Assembly (NCBI RefSeq): GCF_900188025.1
Contig: NZ_FZNO01000005.1
Coordinates: forward strand, 62,001-126,000
DNA length: 64,000 nucleotides
Source of the DNA: Blastococcus mobilis
GTDB taxonomy: Bacteria; Actinomycetota; Actinomycetes; Mycobacteriales; Geodermatophilaceae
Direction: 5' to 3'
Below are positions 30,323-61,894 of this stretch, piece after piece (position 1 is the stretch's first letter; each line of letters starts with the position of its first letter). The position numbers and the translations under genes were made by a program. The notes beneath the pieces are model-generated. The model was not told the DNA's origin, made no database searches, and was given only the letters and a program-made list of their open reading frames with translations.

Positions 30323-30334
30323 CGGACGGTCCGA
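30323..30334 (+). promoter_or_regulatory. Phage motif CGGACGGTCCGA, copy 1 (near attL)
   Basis: Exact copy of the repeated intergenic motif, 64 bp inside the prophage. It is the only strong copy not directly upstream of a plus-strand start. Confidence 0.6.
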
Positions 30335-30398
30335 TGCCTCACGATGCCTCCCGATGGTCCACTTTCCCGGGTACAGTTCGGGTACAGCCCGGGTACGA
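30332..30398 (+). repeat. Two families of short direct repeats next to attL
   Basis: CGATGCCTC occurs at 30332-30340 and 30342-30350, with CGATGG at 30352 (10-bp period). CGGGTACAG occurs at 30368-30376 and 30379-30387, with CGGGTACGA at 30390-30398 (11-bp period). Helically phased short repeats next to an attachment site suggest integrase arm-type or accessory-protein sites; this is inference. Confidence 0.55.
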
Positions 30399-30671
30399 GC
30401 CGGCGAGTTCGCGGGCGACGGCGATGAGGTCGTCGGCGGTTCCGGCCCACCCGTCGCGGCTGAGCGCCATCATGGCCCGGCACGCGGCGTCGTCGCCGGC
30501 CAGGGCGCGCACCGCGGTCGCCTGCGCCCGCATCAGCGCCGCCCGGGTGCGGGCCTCGTCGGCGATGCCCTGATGCGTCGTCGCGGCGTGATCGGCGAGA
30601 CGCGCGAGCTCCTCGAGTCGGGTCGGGTCCGGGGCGGGCAGGTCCAGCGGCAGCTCATCGGGTGGGGTCAC
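30339..30671 (-). CDS. Hypothetical phage protein, first gene inside attL
   Basis: A 110-residue mostly helical protein starting GTG 30671. TRLEELARLADHAATTHQGI and RTRAALMRAQATAVRALAG are its clearest helices; no domain recognised. It reads opposite to the terminase and its 3' end runs into the direct repeats beside attL. The position between attL and terL on the minus strand could suit a small DNA-binding protein, but nothing in the sequence proves this. Confidence 0.55.
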   Translation of the reverse strand: MTPPDELPLDLPAPDPTRLEELARLADHAATTHQGIADEARTRAALMRAQATAVRALAGDDAACRAMMALSRDGWAGTADDLIAVARELAGSYPGCTRTVPGKVDHREAS

Positions 30672-30714
30672 GGCGCGGAGTGTGCTCCGAACCCCCGACG
30701 GAGCAGCGCGTTCA

Positions 30715-30726
30715 CGGACGGTCCGA
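30715..30726 (+). promoter_or_regulatory. Phage motif CGGACGGTCCGA, copy 2 (terL)
   Basis: Exact copy ending 4 bp before the terL ATG, in place of a normal purine-rich ribosome-binding site. Confidence 0.65.
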
Positions 30727-30730
30727 ACGC

Positions 30731-32149
30731 ATGGCGACCGTGTGGGATCTGGTGCTGGAGGGCGTGCTCGCCGAGTACGACCCGAAGCCCCCCACGCTGC
30801 CCGGCTACGAGCCGCAGCCCAAGCAGTCGATCGCCGAGCAGCTGGCCGGCGAGGTCTTCGAGATGCTGTACGGCGGCGCCGCGGGTGGCGGCAAGAGCTA
30901 CTGGCTCCGGCACTCCGCCGTCCTGTACTGCCTCACCCACCCCGGCGCGTACGTCGCCATCGTGCGGCGCACCCTGCCGATGCTGCGGAAGACCCATCAC
31001 CGGCCGCTCCAGGACATCTGCCGCGGGCTGGCCACGCACAACAAGTCCGACCTGTCGTGGACGTTCCCGAACGGCGCCGTGCTGCAGCTCATCAGCCTCA
31101 CCCACGACGGCGACGAGCAGGACTACAAGTCCGTCGAGTTCGACCGCCTGTACTTCGATGAGCTGACCGAGTTCACCGAGGCCCAGTACACGTACATGCT
31201 GACCCGGCTCCGGTCGTCGAACGGGCACCCAACGGCGGCGATCGGTGCGACGAACCCCGAGGGTGTCGGGTACGCGTGGGTGAAGCGCCGGTTCGTCAAG
31301 CCGCGGCCCGGGGACCTCGCTGAGGGCCAGGGGCAGCCGGTCGCGTGCGAGCCGTGGCGCCCGCCGCTCCCGGACGGGTCAGGTCCTGGCCGCGCCCGGG
31401 TGTTCGTGCCGGCGACGCTGCTGGACAACCCGGCGCTGCTGGCTGCGAACCCCGAGTACGAGATGACGCTGCGGTCGATGACCGACCCGCGGAAGCGGAA
31501 GGCGCTGCTCGAGGGCGACTGGGACGCGATGGACCAGGTGCAGGGCGCGCAGTTCTCGCTGACCAACATCGACAACCACCGCGTGCACAAGGCACCGGCC
31601 GACCTCGCCCGCGTCGTCGTCGGCTACGACCCCGCGACCACATTCACCGCTACGTCCGACGAGACCGGCATCGTCGCCGCGGCGAGCGCACAGGCGACCC
31701 GGCCCCGGCAGATGTACGTGCTCGCCGACCGGTCTGCCCGCTTCGGCAGCCCCGAGCAGGCGGCGCGCACCTGCGTCGACGTGGCGTGGTCGGTGCAGGC
31801 CGACGCGATCGTGTACGAGACCAACCAGGGCGGCGACTACGTGAAGGCCGCGCTGAACTCGGCGCTCCGGCACGCGGTCAAGGAGGGCCGGTGGAAGGGC
31901 CCACTGCCGAAGGTCCTCGGCGTGCACGCCAAGCGCGGGAAGGCGCTCCGCGCGGAGCCCGTTAGCGTCTACTACGACCAGGGACAGGTGCACCACGTCG
32001 GCCCGTTTGAGGAGCTCGAGGGGCAGATGACGACGTGGACGCCGGGCAACGACTCCCCGGACCGTCTCGACGCGCTCGTCTACGCAATCACTCACCTCGA
32101 AGAGAAGGCCGCGCCGGCCGGGCCGGTCCCCATCCGCTCACTGTGGTGA
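30731..32149 (+). CDS. terL: Terminase large subunit
   Basis: A 472-residue packaging motor. Walker A is LYGGAAGGGKSYWLRHSAVL near residues 47-66, Walker B RLYFDELTEF near 137, and the coupling segment AAIGATNPEG. The C-terminal nuclease domain begins VVVGYDPATTFTATSDETGI, whose aspartate is the first metal ligand; VYETNQGGDYVKAAL and the final DSPDRLDALVYAITHL give the rest. ATG 30731 directly follows the phage motif; an upstream frame extension is not needed. No small terminase gene precedes it, which is unusual. A candidate small subunit is at 60832. Confidence 0.95.
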   Translation: MATVWDLVLEGVLAEYDPKPPTLPGYEPQPKQSIAEQLAGEVFEMLYGGAAGGGKSYWLRHSAVLYCLTHPGAYVAIVRRTLPMLRKTHHRPLQDICRGLATHNKSDLSWTFPNGAVLQLISLTHDGDEQDYKSVEFDRLYFDELTEFTEAQYTYMLTRLRSSNGHPTAAIGATNPEGVGYAWVKRRFVKPRPGDLAEGQGQPVACEPWRPPLPDGSGPGRARVFVPATLLDNPALLAANPEYEMTLRSMTDPRKRKALLEGDWDAMDQVQGAQFSLTNIDNHRVHKAPADLARVVVGYDPATTFTATSDETGIVAAASAQATRPRQMYVLADRSARFGSPEQAARTCVDVAWSVQADAIVYETNQGGDYVKAALNSALRHAVKEGRWKGPLPKVLGVHAKRGKALRAEPVSVYYDQGQVHHVGPFEELEGQMTTWTPGNDSPDRLDALVYAITHLEEKAAPAGPVPIRSLW

Positions 32150-32377
32150 TGGTTGCCCGCGCCGGCTGAGCGCGGACGGTCGTCGGTGTCGGCTTCGGCC
32201 GGCTGGCGTCGCTTGGCTCCCGGGTCCGGCTCATGGCGTCGGGGAGCCTTGAGCCCCCATTGAGCACCCTCGCGGTCAGTCGACAAGGCACGCGGGCCGA
32301 CGGGCCCGGTCGGCGCGGTCGTCCGGTCAGGAACCGGCGCATGAGGAGGGACACCAGGGGACTGCCCCACCTACGCG

Positions 32378-32404
32378 CCGCCCCGGTCATCACGGCCGGG
32401 GCGG
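32378..32404 (+). terminator. Hairpin terminator candidate before the portal gene
   Basis: Arms CCGCCCCGG (32378-32386) and CCGGGGCGG (32396-32404), 9-nt loop, followed by TT. It probably ends the terL transcript. Confidence 0.55.
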
Positions 32405-32446
32405 TTGCGTTCCCACCCGCGCCTCCGTGACGAGTAGCGCTGACCC

Positions 32447-32458
32447 CGGACGGTCCGA
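32447..32458 (+). promoter_or_regulatory. Phage motif CGGACGGTCCGA, copy 3 (portal)
   Basis: Exact copy 15 bp before the portal ATG; a GGAGGTG ribosome-binding site lies between them. Confidence 0.65.
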
Positions 32459-32473
32459 GGCCGGAGGTGCCTC

Positions 32474-33811
32474 ATGGACTACACGCGGATCCTGACGACC
32501 GCGATCAGCACGCTGCGAGCTCGTGGCGTGAAGGTGGAGCCACGGTTCGCGTACTACGACGGCCGGCACGACTGCACCCTCGGGTCGAAGGCTTGGAACG
32601 AGTCGTACCGCAAGGTCGTCGCCGGCGTGAAGGACAACCAGTGCCGGCTCATCGTCGACACCCGCGCCGACGCCGTCGTCCCGTCCGGTGTCGAGGCCGC
32701 GACCGATAACCCGTTCGAGCAGGCCCTCGCGCAGTGGGCGACCGACCTGTTCGAGCGGGAGGCCGACGACCTCGACGAGTTCGCCACGACCGCGGAGAAG
32801 TCGGGCACGCAGACCGTCATGCTCGTCGACTACGACGAGGCCGGCGAGGTCGCGCTGTACGCGGTCGACCCGCGCGCCGTGTACGCCCAGGTCAGCAAGT
32901 CCGGGAAGCTCCGCGCGCTCTTCCACGTCTACCGCGACGAGGGCGACCAGTTCACCTCCGCGACGCTGTACCTGCCGGAGAAGGCCATCAACTTCGGCAC
33001 GACCAGCGCCCAGCTGCTCCCGGCACCCGAGGCGTTCCACGTCCGCGAGGAGATCCCGAACCCGCTCGGTGAAATCGCCGCGGTCGTTGTCGACCTGAAC
33101 GGGTCCGTCCTCGACGACGCCATCCCGCTCAACGACATGCTGAACAAGAGCCTCCAGACGCAGGCCGTCGTCGGCGAGTCGTACGCGCTGCCGTTCCGCG
33201 TGTACCTCGGCATCGAGACCTACGACCCCACGCAGGGCGTCGTCGGCCCGGCGCTGCCGAGCATGAACCCGGCCACCGGTGGGCGTGACGTGTCCCTGCC
33301 GACCGTCGCCGACGCCGAGGGCGACAAGCGGCAGGTCATCCAGTTCGACAGCCCGGAGCCGGAGAAGTACCTCGCCGAGCAGGACAGCCTGCGGACCGCG
33401 ATCGCGCGCCTGGCGCACATCCCGACGCACCTGGTGCAGCTCGGTGGCGCCCCGATCAGCGGTGACGCGCTGGAGATCGCGTCGATGCCGTTCGTCGGGT
33501 GGCAGGCCGCCGCGATCCGCACCACGTACCGGCGGGCGTTCCGTGAGGCCGCCCGGCTGGCGGTCCGCCGGCACCTGTACAAGCTGACCGGTCGCCCGAT
33601 GGACGCTCCGGCGCTCGACGTGAAGTTCGCGCCGATCGCCACCAGCACGACCAGCAGCCGGGTGCAGCAGATGCGCGACGCCGTCGACGCCGGCATGAGC
33701 CTCGCCGACGCGCTCGTCGAGTTCCTCGGCTGGGACCGGGAGGCCGCCGACCTCGCCGAGGCCCGCACCGCTGAGGCGTCCGCGCGGGCGTTCGACGCCG
33801 GCACCGTCTGA
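32474..33811 (+). CDS. Portal protein
   Basis: A 445-residue protein of the SPP1-gp6/DUF1073-like portal group, forming the DNA-entry dodecamer. Consistent features are position directly after terL, the size, the N-terminal AWNESYRKVVAGVKDNQCRL and ALAQWATDLFEREADDLDEF. Further evidence is the conserved VMLVDYDEAGEVALYAVDPR and the long helical C-terminus with ARLAHIPTHLVQLGGAPISG and ASMPFVGWQAAAIRTTYRRA. ATG 32474 with GGAGGTG. Confidence 0.9.
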   Translation: MDYTRILTTAISTLRARGVKVEPRFAYYDGRHDCTLGSKAWNESYRKVVAGVKDNQCRLIVDTRADAVVPSGVEAATDNPFEQALAQWATDLFEREADDLDEFATTAEKSGTQTVMLVDYDEAGEVALYAVDPRAVYAQVSKSGKLRALFHVYRDEGDQFTSATLYLPEKAINFGTTSAQLLPAPEAFHVREEIPNPLGEIAAVVVDLNGSVLDDAIPLNDMLNKSLQTQAVVGESYALPFRVYLGIETYDPTQGVVGPALPSMNPATGGRDVSLPTVADAEGDKRQVIQFDSPEPEKYLAEQDSLRTAIARLAHIPTHLVQLGGAPISGDALEIASMPFVGWQAAAIRTTYRRAFREAARLAVRRHLYKLTGRPMDAPALDVKFAPIATSTTSSRVQQMRDAVDAGMSLADALVEFLGWDREAADLAEARTAEASARAFDAGTV

Positions 33812-33825
33812 GCGAGGGCTGAGGG

Positions 33826-34848
33826 GTGACGGCCCGGCAGAGCATCGACGAGGTCGCCGCCGCGCACCGGCAGCGGCTGACCGATGAGCGGTCGCAGGCG
33901 ACCCGGAACATGCGCGCGGCGTACGTCCGGGTGCAGCGGTCCGTGGCCCGCGACCTGGCCGCGTTGCAGCGGCGCATCGACGCGGCCCGCGCGGCGGGTG
34001 AGCCGGTAAACGTGGCGTGGCTGGACCGGCAGGCCCGGTACGCCGCGCTGCTGACGAACCTGACCGAGGCGCTGAACGCGCTCGCTGATGCGACGGCGAC
34101 GGCGACCGTGACCCTCGTCGACGGGGCGCTGGTCGCGGCGGTCGCGCACGGCACCGAGTGGGCGCACACCCTGAACATCACCGGTGGCCTCGGGGTGCTG
34201 AACCCGCTCGCCGCGGAGGAGATCGTCGGCGTGACGACCTACGGGCCGCTGCGTCGGCTGCTGCGGGAGCGTGCCGGGGAGGCCGTGACCGCAGCGCGGG
34301 ACGTGCTCCGGGAGGCCGTGATGCGCGGCTGGGCGCCGAGCAAGACCGCCGCGGAGCTCCGGCGGGTCACCGACGGGGCGTTCAGCAACGCGAAGACCGT
34401 CGCCCGAACCGAGCAGCTCCGCTCGTACAGGGAGGCCACCAGGCGCGCGTACATGCAGAACCCGGCCGTCGCCCGCTGGCAGTGGTCGTCGCGCTGCCTG
34501 CCCGACAGGACCTGCCCGATGTGTTGGGCCATGCACGGCCGCCAGTTCGACGTCACCGTCCCGATGGGCACTCACCCGAACTGCCTGTGCGCCATGGTCC
34601 CCGTCGTGCCGTACGTCGACTACGGGCCGACCGGCCCCGAGCGGTTCGCCCGGCTGACCGCGGAGCAGCAGCGGAACATCCTCGGGCCGGCCGCGTACCG
34701 CGCGTACGCCGGCGGGGAGCTGCAGCTGGCCGACCTGGTGCACGAGCACCGGCACCCCGAGTGGGGTCTGGTTCGCCGCACCGGATCGCTGACCGCCGCG
34801 GTCGGCGCCGAACGGGCCGCGCAGCTCATGCGTCCCGGAGCCGACTGA
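33826..34848 (+). CDS. MuF-like head morphogenesis / minor capsid protein
   Basis: A 340-residue protein. N-terminal half is helical (RVQRSVARDLAALQRRIDAA). The C-terminal part carries the Mu gpF motif: ARTEQLRSYREATRRAY, then DRTCPMCWAMHGRQFDV and MGTHPNCLCAMVPVV, with Cys and His that can bind zinc. Mu F proteins help portal-capsid assembly or are ejected with the DNA. GTG start 33826, 14 bp after the portal stop, so co-transcribed. Confidence 0.88.
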   Translation: MTARQSIDEVAAAHRQRLTDERSQATRNMRAAYVRVQRSVARDLAALQRRIDAARAAGEPVNVAWLDRQARYAALLTNLTEALNALADATATATVTLVDGALVAAVAHGTEWAHTLNITGGLGVLNPLAAEEIVGVTTYGPLRRLLRERAGEAVTAARDVLREAVMRGWAPSKTAAELRRVTDGAFSNAKTVARTEQLRSYREATRRAYMQNPAVARWQWSSRCLPDRTCPMCWAMHGRQFDVTVPMGTHPNCLCAMVPVVPYVDYGPTGPERFARLTAEQQRNILGPAAYRAYAGGELQLADLVHEHRHPEWGLVRRTGSLTAAVGAERAAQLMRPGAD

Positions 34849-34864
34849 CAGCCACGCGTCGCTC

Positions 34865-34875
34865 CGGACGGTCCG
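34865..34875 (+). promoter_or_regulatory. Phage motif CGGACGGTCCG, copy 4
   Basis: Exact 11-bp core ending 5 bp before the ATG at 34881; the following GAGGC gives a weak ribosome-binding site. Confidence 0.6.
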
Positions 34876-34880
34876 GAGGC

Positions 34881-35162
34881 ATGACCGTTCCCCGGCACGC
34901 TGCCCCCGTCATCCGCACATCCCGCGGCACCCGCATCCGTCGGGTTGTCGCCGGCGCGTGGTTCGCCCTGGCCGCCGCGCACCTGGTGCTCGCGTGGCCC
35001 GGTGAGCTCGTCTCCGTGGCGATGCTCGTGCCCGGCCTGGTGCTCGCCTCGTCGCTGCGGTGGTTCGCCCGGCCGTCGGTGGTCGCGCTGCGGACCGGCG
35101 CGGTCCTGCTGCTCGCGTGGGAGGTCGTCGTCGTGCTGAACCTGGTCGACCTGGCGGCCTGA
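34881..35162 (+). CDS. Small phage membrane protein
   Basis: A 93-residue protein with a basic N-terminus (IRTSRGTRIRRVVAG) and three membrane segments: AWFALAAAHLVLAW, LVSVAMLVPGLVLASSL and AVLLLAWEVVVVLNLVD. It sits between the MuF and scaffold genes, where structural genes are expected, so a membrane function such as superinfection exclusion is possible but unproven. Confidence 0.65.
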   Translation: MTVPRHAAPVIRTSRGTRIRRVVAGAWFALAAAHLVLAWPGELVSVAMLVPGLVLASSLRWFARPSVVALRTGAVLLLAWEVVVVLNLVDLAA

Positions 35163-35188
35163 CCTCCGTGCGGCCGGGTGGGGCGGTC

Positions 35189-35200
35189 CGGACGGTCCGA
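35189..35200 (+). promoter_or_regulatory. Phage motif CGGACGGTCCGA, copy 5 (scaffold)
   Basis: Exact copy 62 bp before the scaffold GTG, farther from the start than most copies. It is immediately preceded by GCGGTCC, extending the repeat. Confidence 0.6.
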
Positions 35201-35262
35201 GACACGCCCCGACCCGGGGCGGGCCCGCTCGTCGGGCACACCCGCACCAGACAGGACCGATC

Positions 35263-35865
35263 GTGACCACGACCGACCAGAACCCCGCCCCCACCGACGA
35301 CGCCGCCGCTCAGTCCGCTGCTGCCCCCGCAGCTCCGGCCGGCGAGCCGAAGCTGATCCAGCTCACCCAGGAGCAGCTGGACAGCATGTTCAACGACCGC
35401 CTCGAGCGCGCCCGGACGAAGGCCACCGAGGAGAAGGCCGCCGCGACCAAGTCCCTCGAGGACCGCATCGCCGAGCTGGAGACCGCCACGAGGACCGCGA
35501 CCGAGCAGGCCACGGCCGCGGAGAAGGCCGCCGTCGACGCCATCGTCGCTCGCGCCGCGGCGAACACGCACAACCCGGCGCTCGTGGCCGCGGCTGTCGA
35601 CCTGGCCGGCCTCGGCAGCAAGGACGCCGCGACGATCGAGGCGAAGGTCGCCGAGTTCCTCACCGCAAACCCGTACCTGGTCAAGGCCGACGGCACGCCC
35701 GCCCCGGTCGTGCAGCCCACCCCCGGTGCGACCGCGAGCAGCGGCGCCGGCGCGCGGCTGCTCACCGAGGCCGAGATGGACTCGATGACCGCTGAGCAGC
35801 TCCGCGACCCGGAGATGATGAAGCTCTACCTGGAGTCGAAGGCCGCCCTCGCGAAGACCGCCTGA
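35263..35865 (+). CDS. Capsid scaffolding protein
   Basis: A 200-residue acidic, Ala/Glu-rich protein that is typical of scaffolds. It has a disordered N-terminus, a coiled-coil core (LEDRIAELETATRTATEQAT), and a C-terminal helical part (LTEAEMDSMTAEQLRDPEMM). Its place between the portal/MuF genes and the major capsid gene supports the call. It would guide capsid shell assembly and then leave. GTG start 35263. Confidence 0.85.
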   Translation: MTTTDQNPAPTDDAAAQSAAAPAAPAGEPKLIQLTQEQLDSMFNDRLERARTKATEEKAAATKSLEDRIAELETATRTATEQATAAEKAAVDAIVARAAANTHNPALVAAAVDLAGLGSKDAATIEAKVAEFLTANPYLVKADGTPAPVVQPTPGATASSGAGARLLTEAEMDSMTAEQLRDPEMMKLYLESKAALAKTA

Positions 35866-35873
35866 CCTCCACG

Positions 35874-35914
35874 CGAACCGCCCCGGCCGCCCGCACCTCG
35901 GCCGGGGCGGTTCG
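35874..35914 (+). terminator. Hairpin terminator between scaffold and capsid genes
   Basis: A 15-bp stem (CGAACCGCCCCGGCC at 35874-35888 with its complement at 35900-35914) and an 11-nt loop. It may reduce read-through so that capsid is set by its own promoter. Confidence 0.65.
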
Positions 35915-36068
35915 GCGCGTCCCGGGGCAGCTGACGGGTTCCTTGACGACCCGCCGGCACACCGGACCGTGCATCTCACGCCAGCCGGGCGGCTCTTCGG
36001 CACTCCAGCGGATCACTGCCGCACACGCTGGGCGGCGCTCACAGCCACCAAGAAGGGACTGAGCCAAC

Positions 36069-36881
36069 ATGGCGCAGTACAAGGCCGCGGGCATCGACCA
36101 GAAGGTCGTGGCCGCCACCATCCACAACACCCTGTCCGAGCTGGAGGACTTCGCCGCCTCCTACACCCAGGAGTTCCAGGCGCCCATCAACGGGCAGAAG
36201 ACCTCCACCGTCGTCATCCGCAAGCGTCCCACCGTGACGCTCGCCGCGATGCCGGCGAACCGCGACGGTCTGCTCCCGCGGACCAGCGCGGCCTCCACCT
36301 CGGTGGAGATCACCCTGACCGACGACGACTACTTCAAGGTCGCCGTCGACACCCAGGAGGTCGAGGCCGGCAAGATGTCGGTCGAGCTCGGCCAGGCCGG
36401 CGCTCGCGCCATCGTCGCGGCCGGCAACGCTCAGCTGCTCGCCACCCTCGAGGCCCGTGGCACCGAGGTCGAGTTCGTCGGTGACGCCACCGACGGTCAG
36501 GCCGTGTGGACCAACCTGGTCGGCATGGTGACCACGTTCCAGGAGGCTGGCATCGACTCCACCGGCCTGATCCTCGAGATCAAGCCGAAGGTGTGGGCGA
36601 CCATCATCACCGACATCGCCACCCTGCGTTCGGCGCAGGACCCCCGTGAGGTCGCGAAGACCCTGCTGGGTGTCGCGCGCGTCCGCGTGGCGAACCTGCC
36701 GTCGGCGAAGGCGGTGCTGTCGCACCCCGACGCTGCGGCTCAGGCCCGGGTGCTCTCGGGCATCCGGAGCGGCATGGAGGACTTCGACGAGATCGTCGAG
36801 GGCCGCGTGAAGCTCGGCACCGAGGTGCTGGAGCCGGCCGCCGTCCTGGTCCTGGTCGCGCCGGCCCCGGCGACGGTCTGA
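36069..36881 (+). CDS. Major capsid protein
   Basis: A 270-residue protein in the capsid position after the scaffold. It has AGIDQKVVAATIHNTLSELE at the N-terminus, a beta-rich centre (TVVIRKRPTVTLAAMPANRD) and FQEAGIDSTGLILEIKPKVW. The size suits an HK97-fold coat protein. It is the last plus-strand gene before an exceptional 26-bp hairpin, as expected for a gene expressed at very high level. ATG 36069. Codon choice is highly biased (GTC, GCC, CTG). Confidence 0.88.
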   Translation: MAQYKAAGIDQKVVAATIHNTLSELEDFAASYTQEFQAPINGQKTSTVVIRKRPTVTLAAMPANRDGLLPRTSAASTSVEITLTDDDYFKVAVDTQEVEAGKMSVELGQAGARAIVAAGNAQLLATLEARGTEVEFVGDATDGQAVWTNLVGMVTTFQEAGIDSTGLILEIKPKVWATIITDIATLRSAQDPREVAKTLLGVARVRVANLPSAKAVLSHPDAAAQARVLSGIRSGMEDFDEIVEGRVKLGTEVLEPAAVLVLVAPAPATV

Positions 36882-36888
36882 CCAGCCT

Positions 36889-36944
36889 GACGCACGTCGC
36901 AGCCCCTCACCTCCTTCGGGAGGTGAGGGGCTGCGACGTGCGTC
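36889..36944. terminator. Very strong bidirectional hairpin after the capsid gene
   Basis: A perfect 26-bp stem (arms 36889-36914 and 36919-36944) closed by a TTCG tetraloop. It separates the plus-strand capsid gene from the end of the minus-strand cassette and can stop both. Confidence 0.85.
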
Positions 36945-36949
36945 TGGGG

Positions 36950-37249
36950 TCAGGGGAGCGTGATGGTCAGGCCGGCGTCCCATTCGACGATCCAGTCGGC
37001 ACGGGAGCCGTACTGCTCCTCCCAGTACGCGACGGGGTAGGTGCCGGGCGGGAGGGTGTCGGGGTTGGTGTCGAACGCGTCGGGGCCGGACTCGTCGACG
37101 AGCGCGGCGAACGGGCAGGGGTGCTCGAGGTCGCAGCCGCCGTGGTCGCAGCGGAGGACGGGTGTGCAGGTGGGCGGGTGGTCGATGTGCCAGTCATCCT
37201 CTCCGTCGACGACGAGGGTGTGCGGTCCGTAGTCGGTCACGGCGCTCAC
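36950..37249 (-). CDS. Hypothetical protein, minus-strand cassette gene 4
   Basis: A 99-residue protein beginning MSAVTDYGPHTLVVDGEDDW. It has a Cys/His cluster (CTPVLRCDHGGCDLEHPCPF) that could bind zinc and a conserved-looking C-terminus PGTYPVAYWEEQYGSRADWI. No family recognised. Last gene of a four-gene minus-strand cassette; its ATG overlaps the stop of the preceding gene (ATGA). Confidence 0.7.
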   Translation of the reverse strand: MSAVTDYGPHTLVVDGEDDWHIDHPPTCTPVLRCDHGGCDLEHPCPFAALVDESGPDAFDTNPDTLPPGTYPVAYWEEQYGSRADWIVEWDAGLTITLP

Positions 37250-37482
37250 GCCGGCACCAGCGCGGGGGCGACGATGGCCGCCACGGTGTCCCAGAGCTCC
37301 TCTGGGCAGCCGGGGAAGCCGGCCTCCAGCAGCCGGGTCATGACCCGAGCGGTCTCCGGGTCCAGCTCGGGGCGGAGCTGCCGTAGCGCGCCGGTCATGT
37401 AGCGAAGGGCGTTCTGGCGGTCCTGGTAGGCGTACGCGGCGTGGGAGACGTACCGCGCCCGCATGTCCACTGGCGAGCTCAT
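37246..37482 (-). CDS. Hypothetical protein, minus-strand cassette gene 3
   Basis: A 78-residue helical protein (ARYVSHAAYAYQDRQNALRY, then TGALRQLRPELDPETARVMT). Its C-terminus DTVAAIVAPALVPA resembles the C-terminus of the upstream cassette gene (ERSLPASVILTPALVQA), so the two may be distant paralogues. ATG 37482 overlaps the upstream stop. Unknown function. Confidence 0.65.
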   Translation of the reverse strand: MSSPVDMRARYVSHAAYAYQDRQNALRYMTGALRQLRPELDPETARVMTRLLEAGFPGCPEELWDTVAAIVAPALVPA

Positions 37483-37772
37483 GCCTGCACCAGCGCGGGG
37501 GTGAGGATGACCGACGCGGGCAGCGACCGCTCGGCCGCGTCCCACAGGTCCGCGGCGTGGGTCCAGTCGGTGCCGCGGGCGAGGGTGGCGATGGTCGTCC
37601 GCAGGTAGGTGGGCAGCTGGTCGACCATCTCGAGCAGGGCGACGGCGACGATGGCCTGCCGGCCGACGTGCGACGCGCACCTCGCGACGGGTGCGGTCCG
37701 GCGGAGGTACGCGCGGCGGAGGATGCGCAGCTCCCGTGGCGTGACGGTGGCGGGGGAGAAGAGGGTGGTCAT
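37479..37772 (-). CDS. Hypothetical protein, minus-strand cassette gene 2
   Basis: A 97-residue protein with a basic N-terminal half (RELRILRRAYLRRTAPVARC) and a helical C-terminal half (AIVAVALLEMVDQLPTYLRT, then TDWTHAADLWDAAERSL). ATG 37772 with GGAACCCC upstream. It overlaps the next gene by 4 bp. Unknown function. Confidence 0.65.
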   Translation of the reverse strand: MTTLFSPATVTPRELRILRRAYLRRTAPVARCASHVGRQAIVAVALLEMVDQLPTYLRTTIATLARGTDWTHAADLWDAAERSLPASVILTPALVQA

Positions 37773-37804
37773 GGTGGGGTTCCTTCGGGGGTTCGCTGGG
37801 ATGG

Positions 37805-38032
37805 TCAGGCGGTGAGGGCGGGGCAGTCGCGGTAGCGGTGCTGGTCGATCAGCTCGCGGAGCAGGGCCTGCGTGAAGTGGCCGAGCTCGGAGTCGCAGTC
37901 CGGGCAGCGGGTCTTCCATCCCGAGACGACCCAGCGCGCGTTCGGCATCAAAGCCTTTTGCTGCTGCGCGGACATGACCTCGATGGGGAAGCGGCTACGG
38001 GGCCGGGGCCGCCGAGCGGTCGGGGCGGTCAT
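37805..38032 (-). CDS. Hypothetical basic protein with CxxC, minus-strand cassette gene 1
   Basis: A 75-residue protein: an Arg-rich start (APTARRPRPRSRFP), then PNARWVVSGWKTRCPDCDSE and a helical end (TQALLRELIDQHRYRDCP). The CPDC pair and later Cys suggest a small zinc ribbon. ATG 38032 with GGAGCC upstream. First gene of the cassette, with its promoter in the 150-bp gap shared with the plus-strand connector gene. Confidence 0.65.
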   Translation of the reverse strand: MTAPTARRPRPRSRFPIEVMSAQQQKALMPNARWVVSGWKTRCPDCDSELGHFTQALLRELIDQHRYRDCPALTA

Positions 38033-38168
38033 CGGTGGCTCCTTCAGGGGTTCAGCGGCCGGGGGTTTCGGCCGCGTGGTCTGACTTGTCCGGACCCCTC
38101 CCGGCTGCCGCACGGATCCCAAGCCCCGGAGCCGATCTTTCTGATCTCGTGACGGCTCCGGCCGTTCG

Positions 38169-38180
38169 CGGACGGTCCGA
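38169..38180 (+). promoter_or_regulatory. Phage motif CGGACGGTCCGA, copy 6 (connector)
   Basis: Exact copy ending 3 bp before the connector ATG (38184), in the divergent gap of the minus-strand cassette. Confidence 0.65.
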
Positions 38181-39851: not shown

Positions 39852-39903
39852 TGGTGGGCGGCGCGGGAGTCGGCATGGGTTCCCTGACGACACGCGCGCA
39901 CTC

Positions 39904-39912
39904 CGGACGGTC
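39904..39912 (+). promoter_or_regulatory. Partial phage motif CGGACGGTC (major tail protein)
   Basis: Nine of the 12 motif positions are kept, 45 bp before the tail-tube ATG at 39958. Confidence 0.45.
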
Positions 39913-40934: not shown

Positions 40935-40970
40935 CCGGCCCGGCTCCGTGCATCCGCGGAGCCGGGCCGG
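40935..40970 (+). terminator. Hairpin terminator after the major tail protein gene
   Basis: 14-bp arms CCGGCCCGGCTCCG (40935-40948) and CGGAGCCGGGCCGG (40957-40970) with an 8-nt loop. Confidence 0.7.
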
Positions 40971-41017
40971 ACCGTTCCCGGTGTCAACCACTCCTGGCAC
41001 CGATTGGACCCCACCCC

Positions 41018-41691: not shown

Positions 41692-41714
41692 TCCCTGACG
41701 GATCGCGCCCCGCC

Positions 41715-41748
41715 CGGACGGTCTGACCGCAGCAGGTCAGACCGTCCG
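41715..41748. promoter_or_regulatory. Double inverted phage motif / hairpin before the tape measure gene
   Basis: CGGACGGTCTGACC (41715-41728), loop GCAGCA, then the exact inverse GGTCAGACCGTCCG (41735-41748). Two motif copies facing each other make a 14-bp stem. It may be a terminator, an operator pair, or both. It ends 19 bp before the tape measure GTG. Confidence 0.65.
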
Positions 41749-46059: not shown

Positions 46060-46096
46060 AGCCGAACGGTAGCTCCCTGACGTGCGGCTGCTGCTC

Positions 46097-46108
46097 CGAA
46101 CGGTCCGA
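46097..46108 (+). promoter_or_regulatory. Phage motif variant CGAACGGTCCGA (endolysin)
   Basis: One mismatch to the consensus, 32 bp before the endolysin GTG (46141); a CAGGAGCAG ribosome-binding site lies between. Confidence 0.55.
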
Positions 46109-47648: not shown

Positions 47649-47711
47649 CCTTTCCCGCCGCTGACCTGCGTCAATGGTCCGGCGGGATACCTGCATCACG
47701 GTGGGGCGCTA

Positions 47712-47723
47712 CGGACGGTCCGA
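47712..47723 (+). promoter_or_regulatory. Phage motif CGGACGGTCCGA, copy upstream of the phosphoesterase gene
   Basis: Exact copy ending 4 bp before ATG 47728; no Shine-Dalgarno sequence lies between. Confidence 0.65.
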
Positions 47724-49155: not shown

Positions 49156-49185
49156 GCCGGCATCCCTGACGGGCGGCGCCCTCTC

Positions 49186-49197
49186 CGGACGGTCTGA
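49186..49197 (+). promoter_or_regulatory. Phage motif variant CGGACGGTCTGA (tail fibre)
   Basis: One mismatch, 29 bp before the tail fibre ATG; CAGGGAGGGCG ribosome-binding site in between. Same variant as the double motif at 41715. Confidence 0.6.
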
Positions 49198-51961: not shown

Positions 51962-52119
51962 GGTGCCCACGCGGCCCCTGTCGCAGCCCACGCCGGGCGC
52001 GACGGGGGTCGCCGGTGTCCGTACCTCACCGACAGTGACGAAATGCGTCCTGGGGCATCTGAGGGCGTTTCCATCTCACGCACAGTGATCGGCGGCTGGT
52101 GGCCTCCGCTCGTGCCGTT

Positions 52120-52130
52120 CGGACGGTCCA
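52120..52130 (+). promoter_or_regulatory. Phage motif CGGACGGTCCA (rusA)
   Basis: Match to 10 of 11 core bases, ending 4 bp before ATG 52135. Confidence 0.6.
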
Positions 52131-54620: not shown

Positions 54621-54872
54621 TCAGCCCTGGTGCAGGTGGATCCGGCGGGCGGACGCGGCCGGGTCGTACTCCACCCGAATCTCGCCGGCCTCCCGCAGCG
54701 TCCGGAGCGCGTACCCGACCTGCGTCGACTTCCGCTTCGCGTTCGGCTGCCTCCCGGTCGCCCGGGCGATGTCGGCGTTCGTCGCATCGGTGAACCCGAG
54801 GCCGTCGGCGAGGACGTTCAGCGCACGGCGCACGCTGTCGACCGGGCCCGGGTCAGTCGCGCGGCCCATCAC
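54621..54872 (-). CDS. Small winged-helix-like DNA-binding protein
   Basis: An 83-residue protein: VDSVRRALNVLADGLGFTDA, TNADIARATGRQPNAKRKST, QVGYALRTLREAGEIRVEYD. Helix-turn-helix spacing followed by a short beta wing suggests a winged helix. GTG 54872 overlaps the ATPase stop (GTGA); ATG one codon later is also possible. It may regulate or assist the early operon it belongs to. Confidence 0.7.
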   Translation of the reverse strand: MMGRATDPGPVDSVRRALNVLADGLGFTDATNADIARATGRQPNAKRKSTQVGYALRTLREAGEIRVEYDPAASARRIHLHQG

Positions 54873-55927: not shown

Positions 55928-56035
55928 GATGGTGGGTCCAATCAAGTGCAGGGGGTTCAGGGAGTCGTTTGGGTCGGGGAGTGCGCGCCCGGGCCTCGAA
56001 CCCGGCGTGGCTGCCAGCCGCGCGAGAGGGAGGGG

Positions 56036-56368: not shown

Positions 56369-56431
56369 GGCGGGCTCCTTGCGGCTGGGGTTCAACCGCG
56401 GGGGAAGCGGCTGTGACCCCTACGGTCCGCG

Positions 56432-56451
56432 CCGGAGGGGGTCCGGCAAGG
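56432..56451 (+). repeat. 20-bp repeated element, copy B
   Basis: Exact second copy of CCGGAGGGGGTCCGGCAAGG, 63 bp upstream of the gene starting at 56368. It is followed by GAGCTGGAC and an A6 run at 56460. Confidence 0.75.
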
Positions 56452-57784: not shown

Positions 57785-57893
57785 CAGGGGTTCCATCTGC
57801 GGCCGGGGAAGGGGAAACCGGCGTCGCCCCCCTCACCGTCCGGACCCCCACCGGCCAGTGCAGCCATCCCACCCAGCAGGCACGATCGAACGC

Positions 57894-58323: not shown

Positions 58324-59748
58324 TCAGAACGGGTCGTCATTCGACCACCGACCCGCCTGGACGCCACCGGTCCCGAACCCGCCGGCCTGCAGCCGCTCCT
58401 CACGCTGCTGATGCGCCGCCGACCGCTTGGAGCCGCTCGCGACCCGCTTGCCGTCCTCTGTGACCGTCCACGTCGTCGCCGCACCACCACGCTTGCCCTC
58501 GACGACCGTCGCCCAGCCCTTCTCGACCAGCTTGTCCAGCTTCCGCCGCGCCTTCTGCACGTTGCTCGCCGACGACGACCCGTGCTCAGCGTTCGCCGCC
58601 TGCTGCGCCGTCAGCGACCCAGCAGCGGCCAGCGCGACCAGGTGGTCGAACGCGCCCTGCACCGTGCTCACGCCCGCCTCGTGGTCGTGCACCACCTGCA
58701 GCGTGCCCGGGTCGTCGTTCACCAGCTTCAGCATCGACAGCTCGACGACCAGGTCACCGGTCTTCCCGTGCAGGTTCACGATGCTGCCGTGGCCCGCGGT
58801 CAGCCACGTCGACCCGAAGATGTCATCGACACCCTTCGGCTTGCCCGCCGTCTCCGCGTTCGACTTCCGCGGGTGGTGCAGGTCGCACACCTGGATGCCG
58901 GCCACCAGGCACATCTGGATGGCCTGGTTGTAGTTGCTGCCGTGCTCGTCGTCGCTGAGCTTGGCGACCGCATCCTTCAGCGAGTCGACGATGACCACGC
59001 TCGCCCCGAATCGCTTCGCCAGGTCGCGCAGCAGCCCCGGCCGTGTCAGCAGCGGCGCCGGCAGCGGCCCCTTCCACACCTCCAGGCGCTCATCGAGCAC
59101 CGCCCGCTCGGCCTGGGTCGCCTGCTCGAACTGCCGACGCAGCGCCCGCGCCGCCTGCCGTGGCCGGTCCATCGCCAGGTACAGCACCCGGCCGGTCGTC
59201 GGTGCCACCGGGAAGCCGAGTAGGTCGTCCTGCAGCCCGAGCAGTCCCTTGACCAGCTGGTGCGCCAGCGTCGTCTTCCCCAGCCCCTGCGGGCCGTGAA
59301 TCATCATCGCCTCACCCGCGGCCCACAGCGTCATCTCCGATGTGCCCCAGATGGGCTCGAGCTCGGCGTCGGTGCCGAACACGAACTCCGCACCCGACAC
59401 GGCCGGAGAGAGGTCCAGCCCCTCGAGGCCAGCCTCCTCCGCGGTCGCGGCACGCTCGGCGGCGACCAGCTCGGCGGCGTCCTTCCGGGCACGGAGGCGC
59501 TGCGCCTCGTCGGCGACCATCCGCTCGAAGTCGGCGTCGCCGCGCTCGGCGGCCAGCTGCTGCCGGGCCAGCTCGGCGGCCTTCAGGCGCACGACGGCCT
59601 CAGCGACGGCCTGGTCGACATCGAGGGGGTCACGCTGCTGGCGGCGCGGCTCACCGGCCTGCGCGGACCGCGCGTGGTGGATGTACGTCACCTCAGCGTC
59701 GGGCGCGGCCTCGTCCCAGCCAGCCCACATGTCATCCGCAGTGCTCAC
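58324..59748 (-). CDS. RepA/AAA_25-like replicative helicase-type ATPase with C-terminal wHTH
   Basis: A 474-residue protein. Walker A lies near residue 152 (MMIHGPQGLGKTTLAHQLVK), Walker B near 251 (FGASVVIVDSLKDAV). VLYLAMDRPRQAARALRRQF and CLVAGIQVCDLHHPRKSNAE fit the RepA/RecA-like hexameric helicases of phages and plasmids. A C-terminal winged-helix part follows (SASNVQKARRKLDKLVEKGW). GTG 59748 is chosen. An ATG at 59883 keeps the frame, but its 45 extra codons include TTG, CAT, TCA, AGA and CTT, which this phage avoids. It reads away from the iteron array. Confidence 0.82.
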   Translation of the reverse strand: MSTADDMWAGWDEAAPDAEVTYIHHARSAQAGEPRRQQRDPLDVDQAVAEAVVRLKAAELARQQLAAERGDADFERMVADEAQRLRARKDAAELVAAERAATAEEAGLEGLDLSPAVSGAEFVFGTDAELEPIWGTSEMTLWAAGEAMMIHGPQGLGKTTLAHQLVKGLLGLQDDLLGFPVAPTTGRVLYLAMDRPRQAARALRRQFEQATQAERAVLDERLEVWKGPLPAPLLTRPGLLRDLAKRFGASVVIVDSLKDAVAKLSDDEHGSNYNQAIQMCLVAGIQVCDLHHPRKSNAETAGKPKGVDDIFGSTWLTAGHGSIVNLHGKTGDLVVELSMLKLVNDDPGTLQVVHDHEAGVSTVQGAFDHLVALAAAGSLTAQQAANAEHGSSSASNVQKARRKLDKLVEKGWATVVEGKRGGAATTWTVTEDGKRVASGSKRSAAHQQREERLQAGGFGTGGVQAGRWSNDDPF

Positions 59749-59886
59749 GGCAAGTCTCCAGTTCTGCCGCGTGCTGGGGGACCAGAGGAGCCGGTCCAGG
59801 TGGTAGCCAGCGGGCGACGACGGGGACCGTGAGGGCGCGACCGCCCGATGCAAGTAGGTCCCTCGGACGGGTGCCCTGGGCATGGC

Positions 59887-59920
59887 GAAGGGCCTCCGGC
59901 TACCACCCCGGAGGCCCTTC
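59887..59920. repeat. 13-bp inverted repeat upstream of the helicase gene
   Basis: Arms GAAGGGCCTCCGG (59887-59899) and CCGGAGGCCCTTC (59908-59920) with an 8-nt loop. Confidence 0.7.
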
Positions 59921-60017
59921 AGCGGCTGGAGACCGCGCGCATCCCTGCCCCTCCCACTGTGCGGGCGGTGCTCGCCGGCGCAATGGGCTGGCCCGGTCGG
60001 GGGCCTCGTACGGGGGG

Positions 60018-60206
60018 AATCACGCCGGCCGGTGAATCACGATCCGAATCACGCAGGGGGTCCGGCCAGCGGGTATCACGGAGCCCACGGAGCAATCACG
60101 CAGCCGGCCGGTTCACGCTCAGATCGGAATCACGCCGGCAATCACGCAAATCACGCACCGGGGAAATCACGCGCGGGCCCCCCTCTTACTGGGGGCCCGC
60201 GTGATT
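60018..60206 (+). repeat. Iteron-like array of AATCACGC
   Basis: Exact octamers at 60018, 60047, 60094, 60128, 60140, 60149 and 60165, near copies at 60035 (AATCACGA) and 60074 (TATCACGG), a weak one at 60112, and one inverted copy GCGTGATT at 60199. The last direct copy and the inverted copy flank a 10-bp GC stem (60173-60182 with 60191-60200). About ten copies in 190 bp cannot be chance. Iterons or an operator array are the two main readings. Confidence 0.85.
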
Positions 60207-60313
60207 CCCGTCCAGGCCAGAGGGAGGCCGTGTCCTCCCTCGGCTGCCAGAACACCGGCCGCGGGCGGTCGACCTACCTGCATCCGCACACCCCGGTCGG
60301 CACGGTCGATCGC

Positions 60314-60784
60314 ATGACCACCCCTCCCGCGAACCCCCCGACCAGCGGCACCGACGACCTCGACCTCTGGGGCGCCTGGGCGCTCGTATACACGTTCATC
60401 GCCGGCATCATCGGCATCACCCCCGACACCCGCGCCGAGCACACCGTCCACGCCGAACTCGCCATCCACGGCCTCCCGCGCACCGAAGCCGACGCGTGGG
60501 CCCTCCTCGACCGCCTCTTCGACGCCTCGCACCGCATCGGGTGGCCCGACCACCTCAAGGCCACCCTCCTCGGCGTCGGCCTCGAGGAGATCTACGCCAG
60601 CGGCCCCGGCCTCGACGATCCCCGGTACGACGACCAGCTGCGCCCGGTCAACGACGAGCCGTGCGTCTGCCCGACGGACTTCATCTGCCTGGCCGCCGAA
60701 CACGACGACGACGATCGCCTCGTCTGCGGCAACTGCTGGCCCGAGGACTGCGACTGCCCCGACCTCCCCGACGACGCGGCGTGA
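60314..60784 (+). CDS. Hypothetical early protein with C-terminal Cys cluster
   Basis: A 156-residue protein: DLWGAWALVYTFIAGIIGIT, EHTVHAELAIHGLPRTEADA, WALLDRLFDASHRIGWPDHL, then an acidic Cys-rich end (EPCVCPTDFICLAAEHDDDD, VCGNCWPEDCDCPDLP). The final cluster may bind zinc. ATG 60314. First plus-strand gene to the right of the iteron array. Confidence 0.65.
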   Translation: MTTPPANPPTSGTDDLDLWGAWALVYTFIAGIIGITPDTRAEHTVHAELAIHGLPRTEADAWALLDRLFDASHRIGWPDHLKATLLGVGLEEIYASGPGLDDPRYDDQLRPVNDEPCVCPTDFICLAAEHDDDDRLVCGNCWPEDCDCPDLPDDAA

Positions 60785-60787
60785 CCG

Positions 60788-60798
60788 CGGACGGTCCA
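60788..60798 (+). promoter_or_regulatory. Phage motif CGGACGGTCCA, copy upstream of 60832
   Basis: Match to 10 of 11 core bases, starting 4 bp after the preceding stop and 33 bp before the ATG; GGGGGAGGGA lies between. Confidence 0.6.
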
Positions 60799-60831
60799 CC
60801 ACCTGTGGAGAAGTTGGGGGAGGGACGACCC

Positions 60832-61449
60832 ATGAAGGCGTGTGTGAAGGGCTGCGGGCATGAGCACGACCCGCGGAAGTGCACCGGTCATGTCGACGGC
60901 GAGGACGGGTCGCTGCGCCCGTGCCGGAAGGCTCCGATCAAGGGCGCGACGGTTTGCCGCAGCCACGGTGGTGCGGCGCCGCAGGTGAAGGCGAAGGCCG
61001 AGGTCGTCCGCCGCGAGGAGGCCGCTGGGCGGGCGCTGACCCGGTGGGCGAAGTACGCCGACCTGACCGGCGAGGTGAACCCGGTCGACGCGCTCCTGGA
61101 CGAGTTCCGCCGCACGTCGGCCGTGGTCGCGTACCTGGACGGCGCCACGTCGGCCGAGGACGAGGTCTGGGAGGACAAGGCCGGCCGCCTCCAGCTGGAT
61201 CCGCGGATCGACTGGTGGCAGGCGGAGCGGGACCGGCTGACGAAGCTGGTGCAGACGATGCACAGCATCGGCATCAGCGAGCGGCAGACCCGCGTCCTCG
61301 AGGCGCAGGCGTCGCAGCTGGTCACCGTCATCCGCGGTGTCCTCGACGGGCTGAACCTCACCGCGGAGCAGCGCGCCCTGGTGCCGGGGGTGCTGCGGGC
61401 GCAGCTGGCCGCGATCGCGTCGGCACCGGCCCCAGGGGAGCCAGCGTGA
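60832..61449 (+). CDS. Zinc-finger HGG-type phage protein, candidate small terminase subunit
   Basis: A 205-residue protein. An N-terminal Cys/His region (CVKGCGHEHDPRKCTGHVDG, then CRKAPIKGATVCRSHGGAAP) of the 'C..... GATVC..HGGxxPQ' type is seen in many actinophage proteins. A helical body follows (EEAAGRALTRWAKYADLTGE, AERDRLTKLVQTMHSIGISE, VLEAQASQLVTVIRGVLDGL). Proteins of this design are sometimes annotated as small terminase subunits; no gene next to terL fills that role, so this is a candidate. ATG 60832. Confidence 0.6.
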   Translation: MKACVKGCGHEHDPRKCTGHVDGEDGSLRPCRKAPIKGATVCRSHGGAAPQVKAKAEVVRREEAAGRALTRWAKYADLTGEVNPVDALLDEFRRTSAVVAYLDGATSAEDEVWEDKAGRLQLDPRIDWWQAERDRLTKLVQTMHSIGISERQTRVLEAQASQLVTVIRGVLDGLNLTAEQRALVPGVLRAQLAAIASAPAPGEPA

Positions 61450-61643
61450 ACCCCGAGCTGTGGTTCCTCATGTCGTCCGAGCTGCTGGAGCAGGCGCTGA
61501 CCACCGCAGCCCGCAATGGGGAGGACGCCGTCGACGGGCTGATGTTCGAGCTGTGGGCGAACGCCGTCCACATGGTCGACGGCGAGGACGCCCCCGACGG
61601 CGCCGAACTCATGTGCTGGACCGCGTACCCCGAGACAGACTGA
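61446..61643 (+). CDS. Small hypothetical protein
   Basis: A 65-residue acidic protein: PELWFLMSSELLEQALTTAA, DAVDGLMFELWANAVHMVDG. GTG overlaps the preceding stop (GTGA), so it is translationally coupled to 60832. No family recognised. Confidence 0.6.
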   Translation: MNPELWFLMSSELLEQALTTAARNGEDAVDGLMFELWANAVHMVDGEDAPDGAELMCWTAYPETD

Positions 61644-61647
61644 TGTC

Positions 61648-61848
61648 GTGACCGAGCGCCACGCCCCCGAGGTGTGCGGCCAGTTCCCGCTGTGCCCCCC
61701 GGACTGCCCCGCGCCCGGCTGCTGGGACGTACGCCACCACTGGCCCCGCCGACCCGAGCCGCCGCTCCCACCAGCGCGGACTCCTGGCCCACCGGTTGAC
61801 GTGGATGCCGTGTACGGGCCGCCGGGCGACTGGGACGACAACTTCTGA
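61648..61848 (+). CDS. Small Cys/Pro-rich hypothetical protein
   Basis: A 66-residue protein: APEVCGQFPLCPPDCPAPGC, WDVRHHWPRRPEPPLPPART, AVYGPPGDWDDNF. Four Cys and two His near the N-terminus could bind a metal. GTG 61648, 4 bp after the preceding stop. Confidence 0.5.
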   Translation: MTERHAPEVCGQFPLCPPDCPAPGCWDVRHHWPRRPEPPLPPARTPGPPVDVDAVYGPPGDWDDNF

Positions 61849-61885
61849 CGCCCGCGGAGGCTCCGTGCATTCGCCGGGGCCGGTC

Positions 61886-61894
61886 CGGACGGTC
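61886..61894 (+). promoter_or_regulatory. Phage motif CGGACGGTC, partial copy
   Basis: Nine core bases, preceded by CGGTC and followed by AGGACC, ending 6 bp before ATG 61901. Confidence 0.5.

Follow-up and report, generated by a model that had tools for sequence, protein, structure and literature searches.

What is the short, nearly palindromic repeat that stands before so many genes of a prophage in Blastococcus mobilis, and what could it do there? The repeat lies in a 64,000-nucleotide stretch of contig NZ_FZNO01000005.1, hereafter the window, and belongs to a prophage of ~38 kb (phage A) that extends from ~30250 to ~68240 in window numbering within a 5.09-Mb host genome. An initial annotation of this DNA had offered three options: the copies could be operators for a repressor, promoter elements specific to the phage, or signals for translation initiation. 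Our analysis favors the promoter, on account of a fixed upstream element, two classes of distance to the start codon and syntenic conservation; neither the translation element nor a pure operator held up. We conclude that the repeat very probably works as a promoter, and that it would constitute a phage-specific, sigma-70-like promoter family with a GC-rich, non-canonical −10 element. It looks like the phage's own transcription start signal because two distantly related phages carry it at the same places. Judged from the alignments, the essential unit is neither the palindrome nor a 12-bp word. It is the −10-like half of a directional element that has two parts and resembles a promoter. Its prophage specificity, orientation, bipartite spacing in two phages (A and B), two start-distance classes and syntenic conservation in three phages are established at the level of sequence.

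Counts confirmed that a motif recurs in the gaps of the prophage. With at most one mismatch, CGGACGGTCCGA occurs 12 times in the window where 2.95 copies are expected, a number reached by none of 100 shuffles, and all 12 copies fall between 30323 and 51462; at two mismatches there is no excess (40 copies versus 36 expected, with 24 of 100 shuffles reaching 40). CGGACGGTCYGA is found 13 times in the whole genome and ten of these copies are inside the prophage (nine rightward, one leftward), so the motif is not equally dense in host DNA. For a test of gaps, genes were called without knowledge of the motif, from codon-position GC, which gave 33 gaps of at least 20 bp in phage A (5,663 bp in total). 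CGGAC[CG]GT facing the flanking gene was present at 20 sites in 16 of the 33 gaps, versus 0.82 ± 0.90 sites (maximum 4) in 500 dinucleotide shuffles. Inside the coding sequence of A the same string occurs 17 times in 32,463 bp, both strands counted, and four of those copies, at 47712 (both strands), 61886 and 62599, are at places where the called start is upstream of the motif. Copies often stand a few bp before an ATG, as had been noted: the 12-mer ends 3-4 bp ahead of one at seven positions, of which one (65664) is outside the window. Of the copies listed in the initial annotation, those at 52120 and 60788 have two mismatches, as has the host string at 18313; the two described there as reverse and partial, near 57835 and 62598, are sites 57842 (minus) and 62599 (plus). 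Missing from that list were a one-mismatch copy within a gene (51451), core sites at 35963, 40968, 56429 (minus) and 60299, and the site at 65664 just right of the window. The shuffle and gap tests, together with a comparison of syntenic gaps, ruled out chance or composition as the source of the repeat, which is real and prophage-specific.

Relatives of phage A were found by a search of viral contigs (IMG/VR) with the terminase large subunit gene, terL. Phage B (3300031173_000005; L014/L026) is 31.6 kb long with a terL 64% identical to that of A, and its left part recurs almost unchanged in L015; phage C (3300035698_015064; L016/L027) is 17.5 kb long with a GC content of 57% and a terL 53% identical to that of A. 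Fifteen A proteins have relatives of 27-64% identity in B, where the order of the structural ones is kept, and eight have relatives in C; in C, gene 8578 was assigned from its similarity to B and the scaffold, capsid and tape-measure genes from their position. Beyond the structural block, A and B have in common an integrase, an Xis-like helix-turn-helix (HTH) protein, a RecA-like NTPase, a phrog_3678 relative and an endolysin relative. The gaps of B contain 14 sites, in 12 of 22 gaps, versus 0.50 ± 0.70 in shuffles; the strict form precedes its RecA-like and DnaB-like operons, and four leftward sites precede leftward genes with a Shine-Dalgarno sequence (SD). Phage C carries mostly CGGACCTTC and variants at gaps syntenic with those of A and B. 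Seven gaps were compared across the three phages, those before the portal, scaffold, capsid, gene 38184, tail, gene 41018 and tape-measure genes; in B, the limits of the gap ahead of 8804 (8719-8803) were chosen manually, as the gene caller had a weak leftward open reading frame (ORF) over it. Using a gap set and a mask that were picked after the motif was seen, GGACnnT in sense orientation was present in 21 of 21 gaps, alone among 1024 words of the same shape, the next word reaching 16 of 21. The motif is therefore not absent from the syntenic gaps of relatives.

Alignment of the sites defines the architecture of the element. In A a CTGACG-like hexamer is followed by 14 (or 15) bp and CGGAC[G/C]GTC; the hexamer is mostly [C/T/G]TGACG or [C/G]TGCAT-like, usually preceded by CC, and the 15-bp spacing occurs at a minority of sites. 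Among 22 curated A sites, one of which (60299, GGCACGGT) was added by eye, TGxC lies exactly 19 bases before the motif at ten and TGC at 20 bases at seven others, where the mean per offset is ~0.7. Five positions of CGGACSGT (G, A, C, G and T) are invariant in these 22 sites, and the CCGA that follows is only partly kept (18, 13, 14 and 11 of 22). The 17 curated B sites, found on both strands, read [C/T]GGAC[C/G]GT, mostly in the form CGGAC[C/G]GTC, with an upstream hexamer, mostly T[T/G]GCnn and usually preceded by CC, 14 bp ahead; at 19 bases TGC stands in 8 of 17 (mean 0.5) and GGC in 7 of 17 (mean 1.1). When 47 sites from A, B and C are aligned and the −10 is read as the sigma-70 hexamer GACnnT, A-11 and T-7 are kept in all, as are C at −10 and G at −13, while G takes the place of T-12 in 45; the spacer to the upstream hexamer is then 16-17 bp. 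The right arm of the palindrome varies in A and B and is mostly lost in C, and the CCG arm is common in A and not in B or C. A palindromic operator as the conserved unit was rejected because the right arm is not kept in B or C, and the near-palindromic character first ascribed to the motif is thus not essential to it. The sites of phage A within the window are as follows, where N14 and N15 give the number of spacer bases and distances run from the T of the element to the start codon.

30302..30331, plus strand: promoter-like element near attL (CTGCGC, N15, CGGACGGT), with no assigned sense gene; it runs toward the 3' end of the leftward ORF 30339-30671.
30695..30723, plus strand: putative promoter of the terminase large subunit gene, start 30731, 8 nt from the T, leaderless.
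32153..32181, plus strand: promoter-like element (TTGCCC, N14, CGGACGGT), downstream gene uncertain.
32427..32455, plus strand: putative promoter of the portal gene, start 32474, 19 nt, SD GGAGG.
34845..34873, plus strand: putative promoter of a 93-aa gene, start 34881, 8 nt, start chosen knowing the motif.
35168..35197, plus strand: putative promoter of the scaffold gene (GTGCGG, N15, CGGACGGT), start 35263, 66 nt.
35943..35971, plus strand: putative promoter of the capsid gene (TTGACG, N14, CGGACCGT), start 36069, 98 nt; absent from the earlier list.
38149..38177, plus strand: putative promoter of gene 38184 (connector position), 7 nt, leaderless; also 7 nt in B and C.
39884..39912, plus strand: putative promoter of tail gene 39958 (phrog_290), 46 nt, SD AGGAG.
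40948..40976, plus strand: putative promoter of gene 41018 (GTGCAT, N14, CGGACCGT), 42 nt, weak SD; absent from the earlier list.
41695..41723, plus strand: putative promoter of the tape-measure gene, start 41768, 45 nt, with an inverted copy (41737-41748) within the leader.
46077..46105, plus strand: putative promoter of the endolysin gene (CTGACG, N14, CGAACGGT), start 46141, SD AGGAG.
47691..47720, plus strand: putative promoter of an exonuclease-like gene (CTGCAT, N15), start 47728, 8 nt, start chosen knowing the motif.
49166..49194, plus strand: putative promoter of gene 49227, 33 nt, SD GGAGG.
52100..52128, plus strand: putative promoter of gene 52135, 7 nt, start chosen knowing the motif.
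56421..56449, minus strand: putative leftward promoter (TTGCCG, N14, CGGACCGT), gene start 56368, SD AGGAG; absent from the earlier list.
57834..57863, minus strand: putative leftward promoter, gene start 57796 (38 nt) or 57784 (50 nt).
60279..60307, plus strand: weak promoter-like element before gene 60314 (TGCATC, N14, GGCACGGT), 7 nt, site and start chosen knowing the pattern.
60768..60796, plus strand: putative promoter of the phrog_3678 gene, start 60832, 36 nt, with SD.
61865..61894, plus strand: putative promoter of gene 61901 (GTGCAT, N15), 7 nt, start chosen knowing the motif.
62578..62607, plus strand: promoter-like element (GTGCAT, N15, CGGACCGT) with no assigned start codon, flanked by an inverted repeat (by eye).

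The distances to the start codon fall into two classes. At 14 of 43 tabulated sites the T of the element is 7-8 nt from the start codon, at none is it 9-18 nt away, and at the other 29 it is 19-106 nt away. The 43 include site 2951 before terL of C and leave out, for unsettled starts, A 30323, 32173 and 62599 and B 18112 and 18562; A 57842 enters with 38 (or 50) nt, and C 16649 with 34 nt to a start that opens a 281-aa frame. When the SD was scored as a run of at least four bases of AGGAGG within the last 16 nt, 23 of 27 scored long-distance sites had a separate one, versus means of 5.9, 3.4 and 3.6 of 27 (maximum 13) in three controls. For a given gene the distances are similar in the three phages; in the order A/B/C, they are 8/7/7 nt for terL, 19/30/30 for portal, 66/64/59 for scaffold, 98/97/106 for capsid, 7/7/7 for gene 38184, 46/39/33 for tail, 42/52/29 for gene 41018 and 45/51/22 for tape measure, which makes terL and gene 38184 leaderless in all three phages. 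Six of the 14 leaderless starts (A 30731, 38184 and 65680; B 8804 and 17186; C 8578) came from motif-blind calls. With a transcription start 7-8 nt after the T, an mRNA would be leaderless or else have a leader long enough to accommodate an SD, and the distances fit a predicted promoter that starts transcription there better than they fit a translation signal or a stand-alone operator.

We propose that in A and B an upstream hexamer, a spacer of 14 bp (or 15, at a few of the A sites) and CGGACnnTC would together form the promoter, from which RNA polymerase would start 7-8 nt after the T. Some of these starts would coincide with the start codon, and others would leave leaders of ~12-100 nt, mostly with an SD. 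As copies stand before most structural gene groups and some other genes, single late genes or short operons would each have their own promoter. Hairpins were seen by eye in leaders just past the predicted starts at L014:11310-11360, L014:6752-6805 and window 35189-35235, and at the tape-measure gene the element and the inverted copy that follows it in the leader make up a perfect inverted repeat of 12 bp (41715-41748). In B, a predicted leaderless 8-codon ORF (L014:4278-4304) has a stop that overlaps the portal start (GTGA), and the two are possibly coupled in translation. Because the A element is palindromic, its opposite strand also reads CGGACCGTCC; at 30725 (minus) this faces the leftward ORF 30339-30671, with no −35-like hexamer, and the terL element could possibly serve as a bidirectional −10.

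How specific the element is to these phages was examined in the host, its relatives and viral collections. Exact TGAC-N15-CGGACSGT occurs 14 times in the genome, seven of them in the prophage. Twenty-five host look-alikes, 18 of them matches to CGGACSGT-N7/8-ATG and seven bipartite, were collected; 20 of them sit in frames whose coding score (best frame) exceeds 8, an uncalibrated cut-off. A host promoter class was rejected, since most look-alikes are coding and the element is not evident as a class in the host; a few may be true host sites. At least one exact A-type match is present in 40 of 108 family genomes, the host's own having seven (five in the prophage) and none of the 107 others more than two. 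Searches of whole genomes for terL returned only the host itself among 112 of the family (1e-20) and 394 of the class (1e-40), and the host plus one 45% partial match among 397 of the order; a terL alignment against genome contigs (114 pattern matches) found no relative. Pattern scans of viral contigs gave 29 stretches and at least 120 stretches, which were ranked; ten loci, read by eye, were chance matches, coding repeats and one further piece of phage B (L151). By eye, no recurrent copies were seen in the terL-only contigs L023, L024, L018, L020 and L204-L211; L017 and L019 were scanned with strict patterns only, and L212 was left out. Among 50,697 phage records, the A portal, A tail and B capsid proteins had no match, and terL had 1,020, all below 60% identity.

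Several results weigh against assigning the element to promoters. For a sigma-70 promoter the −10 has an unusually high GC content, −35-like conservation is lacking in phage C, and no sigma factor was recognized among the 23 A accessory proteins searched with PHROGs and/or Pfam or the nine searched from B. A scan of 30200-50000 found no canonical promoter, which lends the promoter assignment weak support because only 0.4 were expected by chance. Eight of the 14 leaderless starts (A 34881, 47728, 52135, 60314 and 61901; B 2790 and 16716; C 2966) were moved with knowledge of the motif, and for B terL the start called blind to the motif (2787) would lie 4 nt from the T, the next in-frame GTG having been used instead. 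The strict form is missing from 17 of the 33 A gaps, among them 59731-60229 (helicase), 55928-56035 (RecA-like) and those on the int/xis side. Across the seven syntenic gaps the strict A/B pattern matches 7, 7 and 1 in A, B and C, and 141 of 2000 shuffles equal the C result; a pattern widened after C had been read matches 6, 7 and 7, equaled by none of 2000 shuffles, this widening being post hoc, like the choice of gaps and mask. Over the whole genome, one-mismatch bipartite matches number 139 versus 47 in a backward-read control, and a second count gave 25 (seven in the prophage) versus 4. Six host look-alikes were read again: frames of 66 and 104 aa start at the ATG of L178 and L190, respectively, and those of the others reach at most 47 aa.

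The alternatives differ in what they make of the palindrome and of the spacing. Were the sites repressor operators or stoperators and not promoters, a repressor on CGGAC-n-GTCCG would block initiation or elongation. Many A sites are indeed fully palindromic, multi-copy and intergenic, and cluster A repressor sites are likewise oriented and in gaps (PMC9283540). However, this arm is what varies in A and B and is mostly lost in C (CGGACCTTC); a 7-8 nt leaderless spacing with a fixed upstream element is unexpected for stoperators; and no cI-like or L5-like repressor was recognized among the 23 A accessory proteins searched, a subset of the A genes, nor a cI-like one among the nine of B. A pure operator is unsupported because the symmetry is not conserved, and we consider it quite improbable. 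An operator might instead be added to the promoter, with the palindromic arm in A allowing a repressor to silence all promoters, an addition compatible with the promoter assignment. The CCG arm, frequent in A only, would fit such a lineage-specific extra constraint, although a candidate repressor was not identified and the A sites 39904, 52120, 60788 and 61886 are without the full arm. An operator overlapping the promoter in phage A may exist, though we consider it rather unlikely. The repressor that the initial annotation placed to the right of the window was not recognized among the proteins found there, which are a DNA methyltransferase, a protein of unknown function, an integrase and an Xis/HTH protein.

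An element acting on the mRNA just before the start codon, of the sort suggested for the cluster K start-associated sequences (SAS), would account for the seven A positions where the 12-mer ends 3-4 nt before an ATG. It was rejected on spacing and strikes us as extremely unlikely, given 29 of 43 sites at 19-106 nt, the separate SD of 23 of the 27 scored, and an element in C, GGACCTT, that is not SD-like. Finally, a variant of the promoter explanation would have a host alternative sigma factor, similar to those of the extracytoplasmic function (ECF) group, read the sites. In its favor, no sigma factor was recognized among the phage proteins searched, ECF sigmas typically use GC-rich −10 elements, genome look-alikes exceed the backward-read control and two of them open sizeable frames. 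Against this stand the 20 of 25 host look-alikes in coding frames, the lack of clustered exact matches in 107 family relatives, and the presence of the element in phages of 72% and 57% GC, which suggests different hosts; we regard this variant as unlikely. Returning to a phage-specific promoter family, its reader is probably phage-specified, judging by host look-alikes that are mostly coding and family genomes without exact-match clusters. Possible readers are a sigma-like protein of the phage, an alternative sigma factor of the host, or host SigA aided by a phage co-factor. A and B have in common the Xis/HTH protein and, beside the RecA-like gene, a winged-helix-like protein that is one candidate regulator, matched by position and a two-sequence alignment (43%). 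In phage A the latter is:

54621..54872, minus strand: small protein, candidate regulator, encoded immediately after the RecA-like gene; it matched no Pfam family itself and aligns with the phage B winged-helix protein at the same position.

Comparison with known systems placed the element near several of them. The cluster K SAS are short, multi-copy, phage-restricted, in one orientation and typically 3-7 bp before an ATG (PMC3203893), and the extended form, ESAS, was later read as containing SigA-like promoters (PMC11373665). The present element is likewise short, multi-copy, phage-restricted and in one orientation, but differs in that the SAS, GGGATAGGAGCCC, contains an SD and is confined to the non-structural half of the genome, whereas ours contains none, is found ahead of structural genes and can be as far as 106 nt from the start codon, most sites being more than a few nucleotides away. 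The 13-bp SAS was found 16 times in the window at up to three mismatches (26.5 expected), its sole single-mismatch copy, at 2639, being in host DNA. Cluster A stoperators occur in temperate actinophages as many oriented copies in promoters and short intergenic gaps (PMC9283540). They differ from the present element in sequence, and here there are a leaderless spacing, an upstream −35-like element and no recognized repressor of that type among the proteins searched. The 13-bp stoperator is GATAGGTGTCAAG; searched in this form, it gave 3 matches at up to three mismatches (5.5 expected). Both analogies had been drawn by the initial annotation with the proviso that the sequences differ, and these searches agree. 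As in SigA (sigma-70) promoters, a TTGAC-like −35 is found in A and B, its spacer of 16-17 bp falling within the 16-18 bp of that class, A-11 and T-7 are kept and some starts are leaderless; the SigA −10 consensus, TAnnnT, is replaced by CGGACnnT, however, C has no −35, and the class is not evident in the host. ECF promoters combine a GGAAC −35 with a CGTC −10, whereas the A and B hexamers are of TGAC, TGCA, TGCC and TGGC types and C mostly has CTTC at the CGTC position. Gordonia phage Vardy has a 50-bp repeated intergenic promoter-like motif (PMC9671010), which is similar in kind but has a canonical TATAAT −10 and five copies. The element has the general features of a phage promoter family: it is multi-copy, gene-oriented, intergenic, phage-restricted and conserved in relatives. 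Literature searches of open-licence papers yielded no description of it.

The remainder of prophage A provides the setting. Both junctions (~30250 and 68240, the latter L009:4240) share the core GAGTA[T/C]GCCGTC, and the split gene is one that we take to be TadE/DUF4244-like. The structural genes run rightward from terL (30731) through portal, minor head, scaffold, capsid, tail and tape measure to endolysin; the minor head, scaffold and capsid are weak family matches, and gene 38184, without a match in a Pfam search, is called a connector by position only. The right end holds the integrase (66256-67749) and an Xis/HTH gene. At 62124-62336 a 70-aa protein has an Acb2/Tad1 hairpin domain (Pfam PF24729, E 1.9e-17) and is likely an anti-CBASS protein; proteins of this type sequester cyclic nucleotides. 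Nine direct ATCACG repeats (60019-60205, starts 60019-60166) and one inverted copy at 60200 lie, iteron-like, in the ~500 bp that separate the helicase gene from gene 60314, and are a candidate replication origin or regulator array. A DNA methyltransferase (phrog_359) adjoins a protein encoded from 63643 to L009:500, which by eye presumably resembles a BglII-type restriction enzyme; the two (coordinates also L009:660-1514) possibly form a prophage restriction-modification pair. A topoisomerase I-like protein (Pfam Topoisom_bac) encoded 12 kb to the right of the window shares 92% identity with one of Blastococcus sp. TF02A-30, which places the host in the Geodermatophilaceae, close to Blastococcus.

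To our knowledge, the promoters of non-mycobacterial actinophages are poorly known. The three phages, a group with no close cultured relative in the searches made, now offer 48 candidate promoters with a non-canonical −10 and predicted starts, from which the reading factor can be sought directly, and exact start codons are suggested for several genes. It is conceivable, if rather doubtful, that the phage group directs its own transcription through a diverged sigma-like or RNA-polymerase-appropriating protein that reads CGGACnnTC, a GC-rich −10, ahead of many operons. If so, the resident prophage would be silent simply because that factor is absent, and a classical repressor would be unnecessary. 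Structural genes are often thought to be carried together on a single late transcript; the arrangement suggests that here they are served by their own promoters, and that particular genes, such as terL and gene 38184, have retained leaderless starts.

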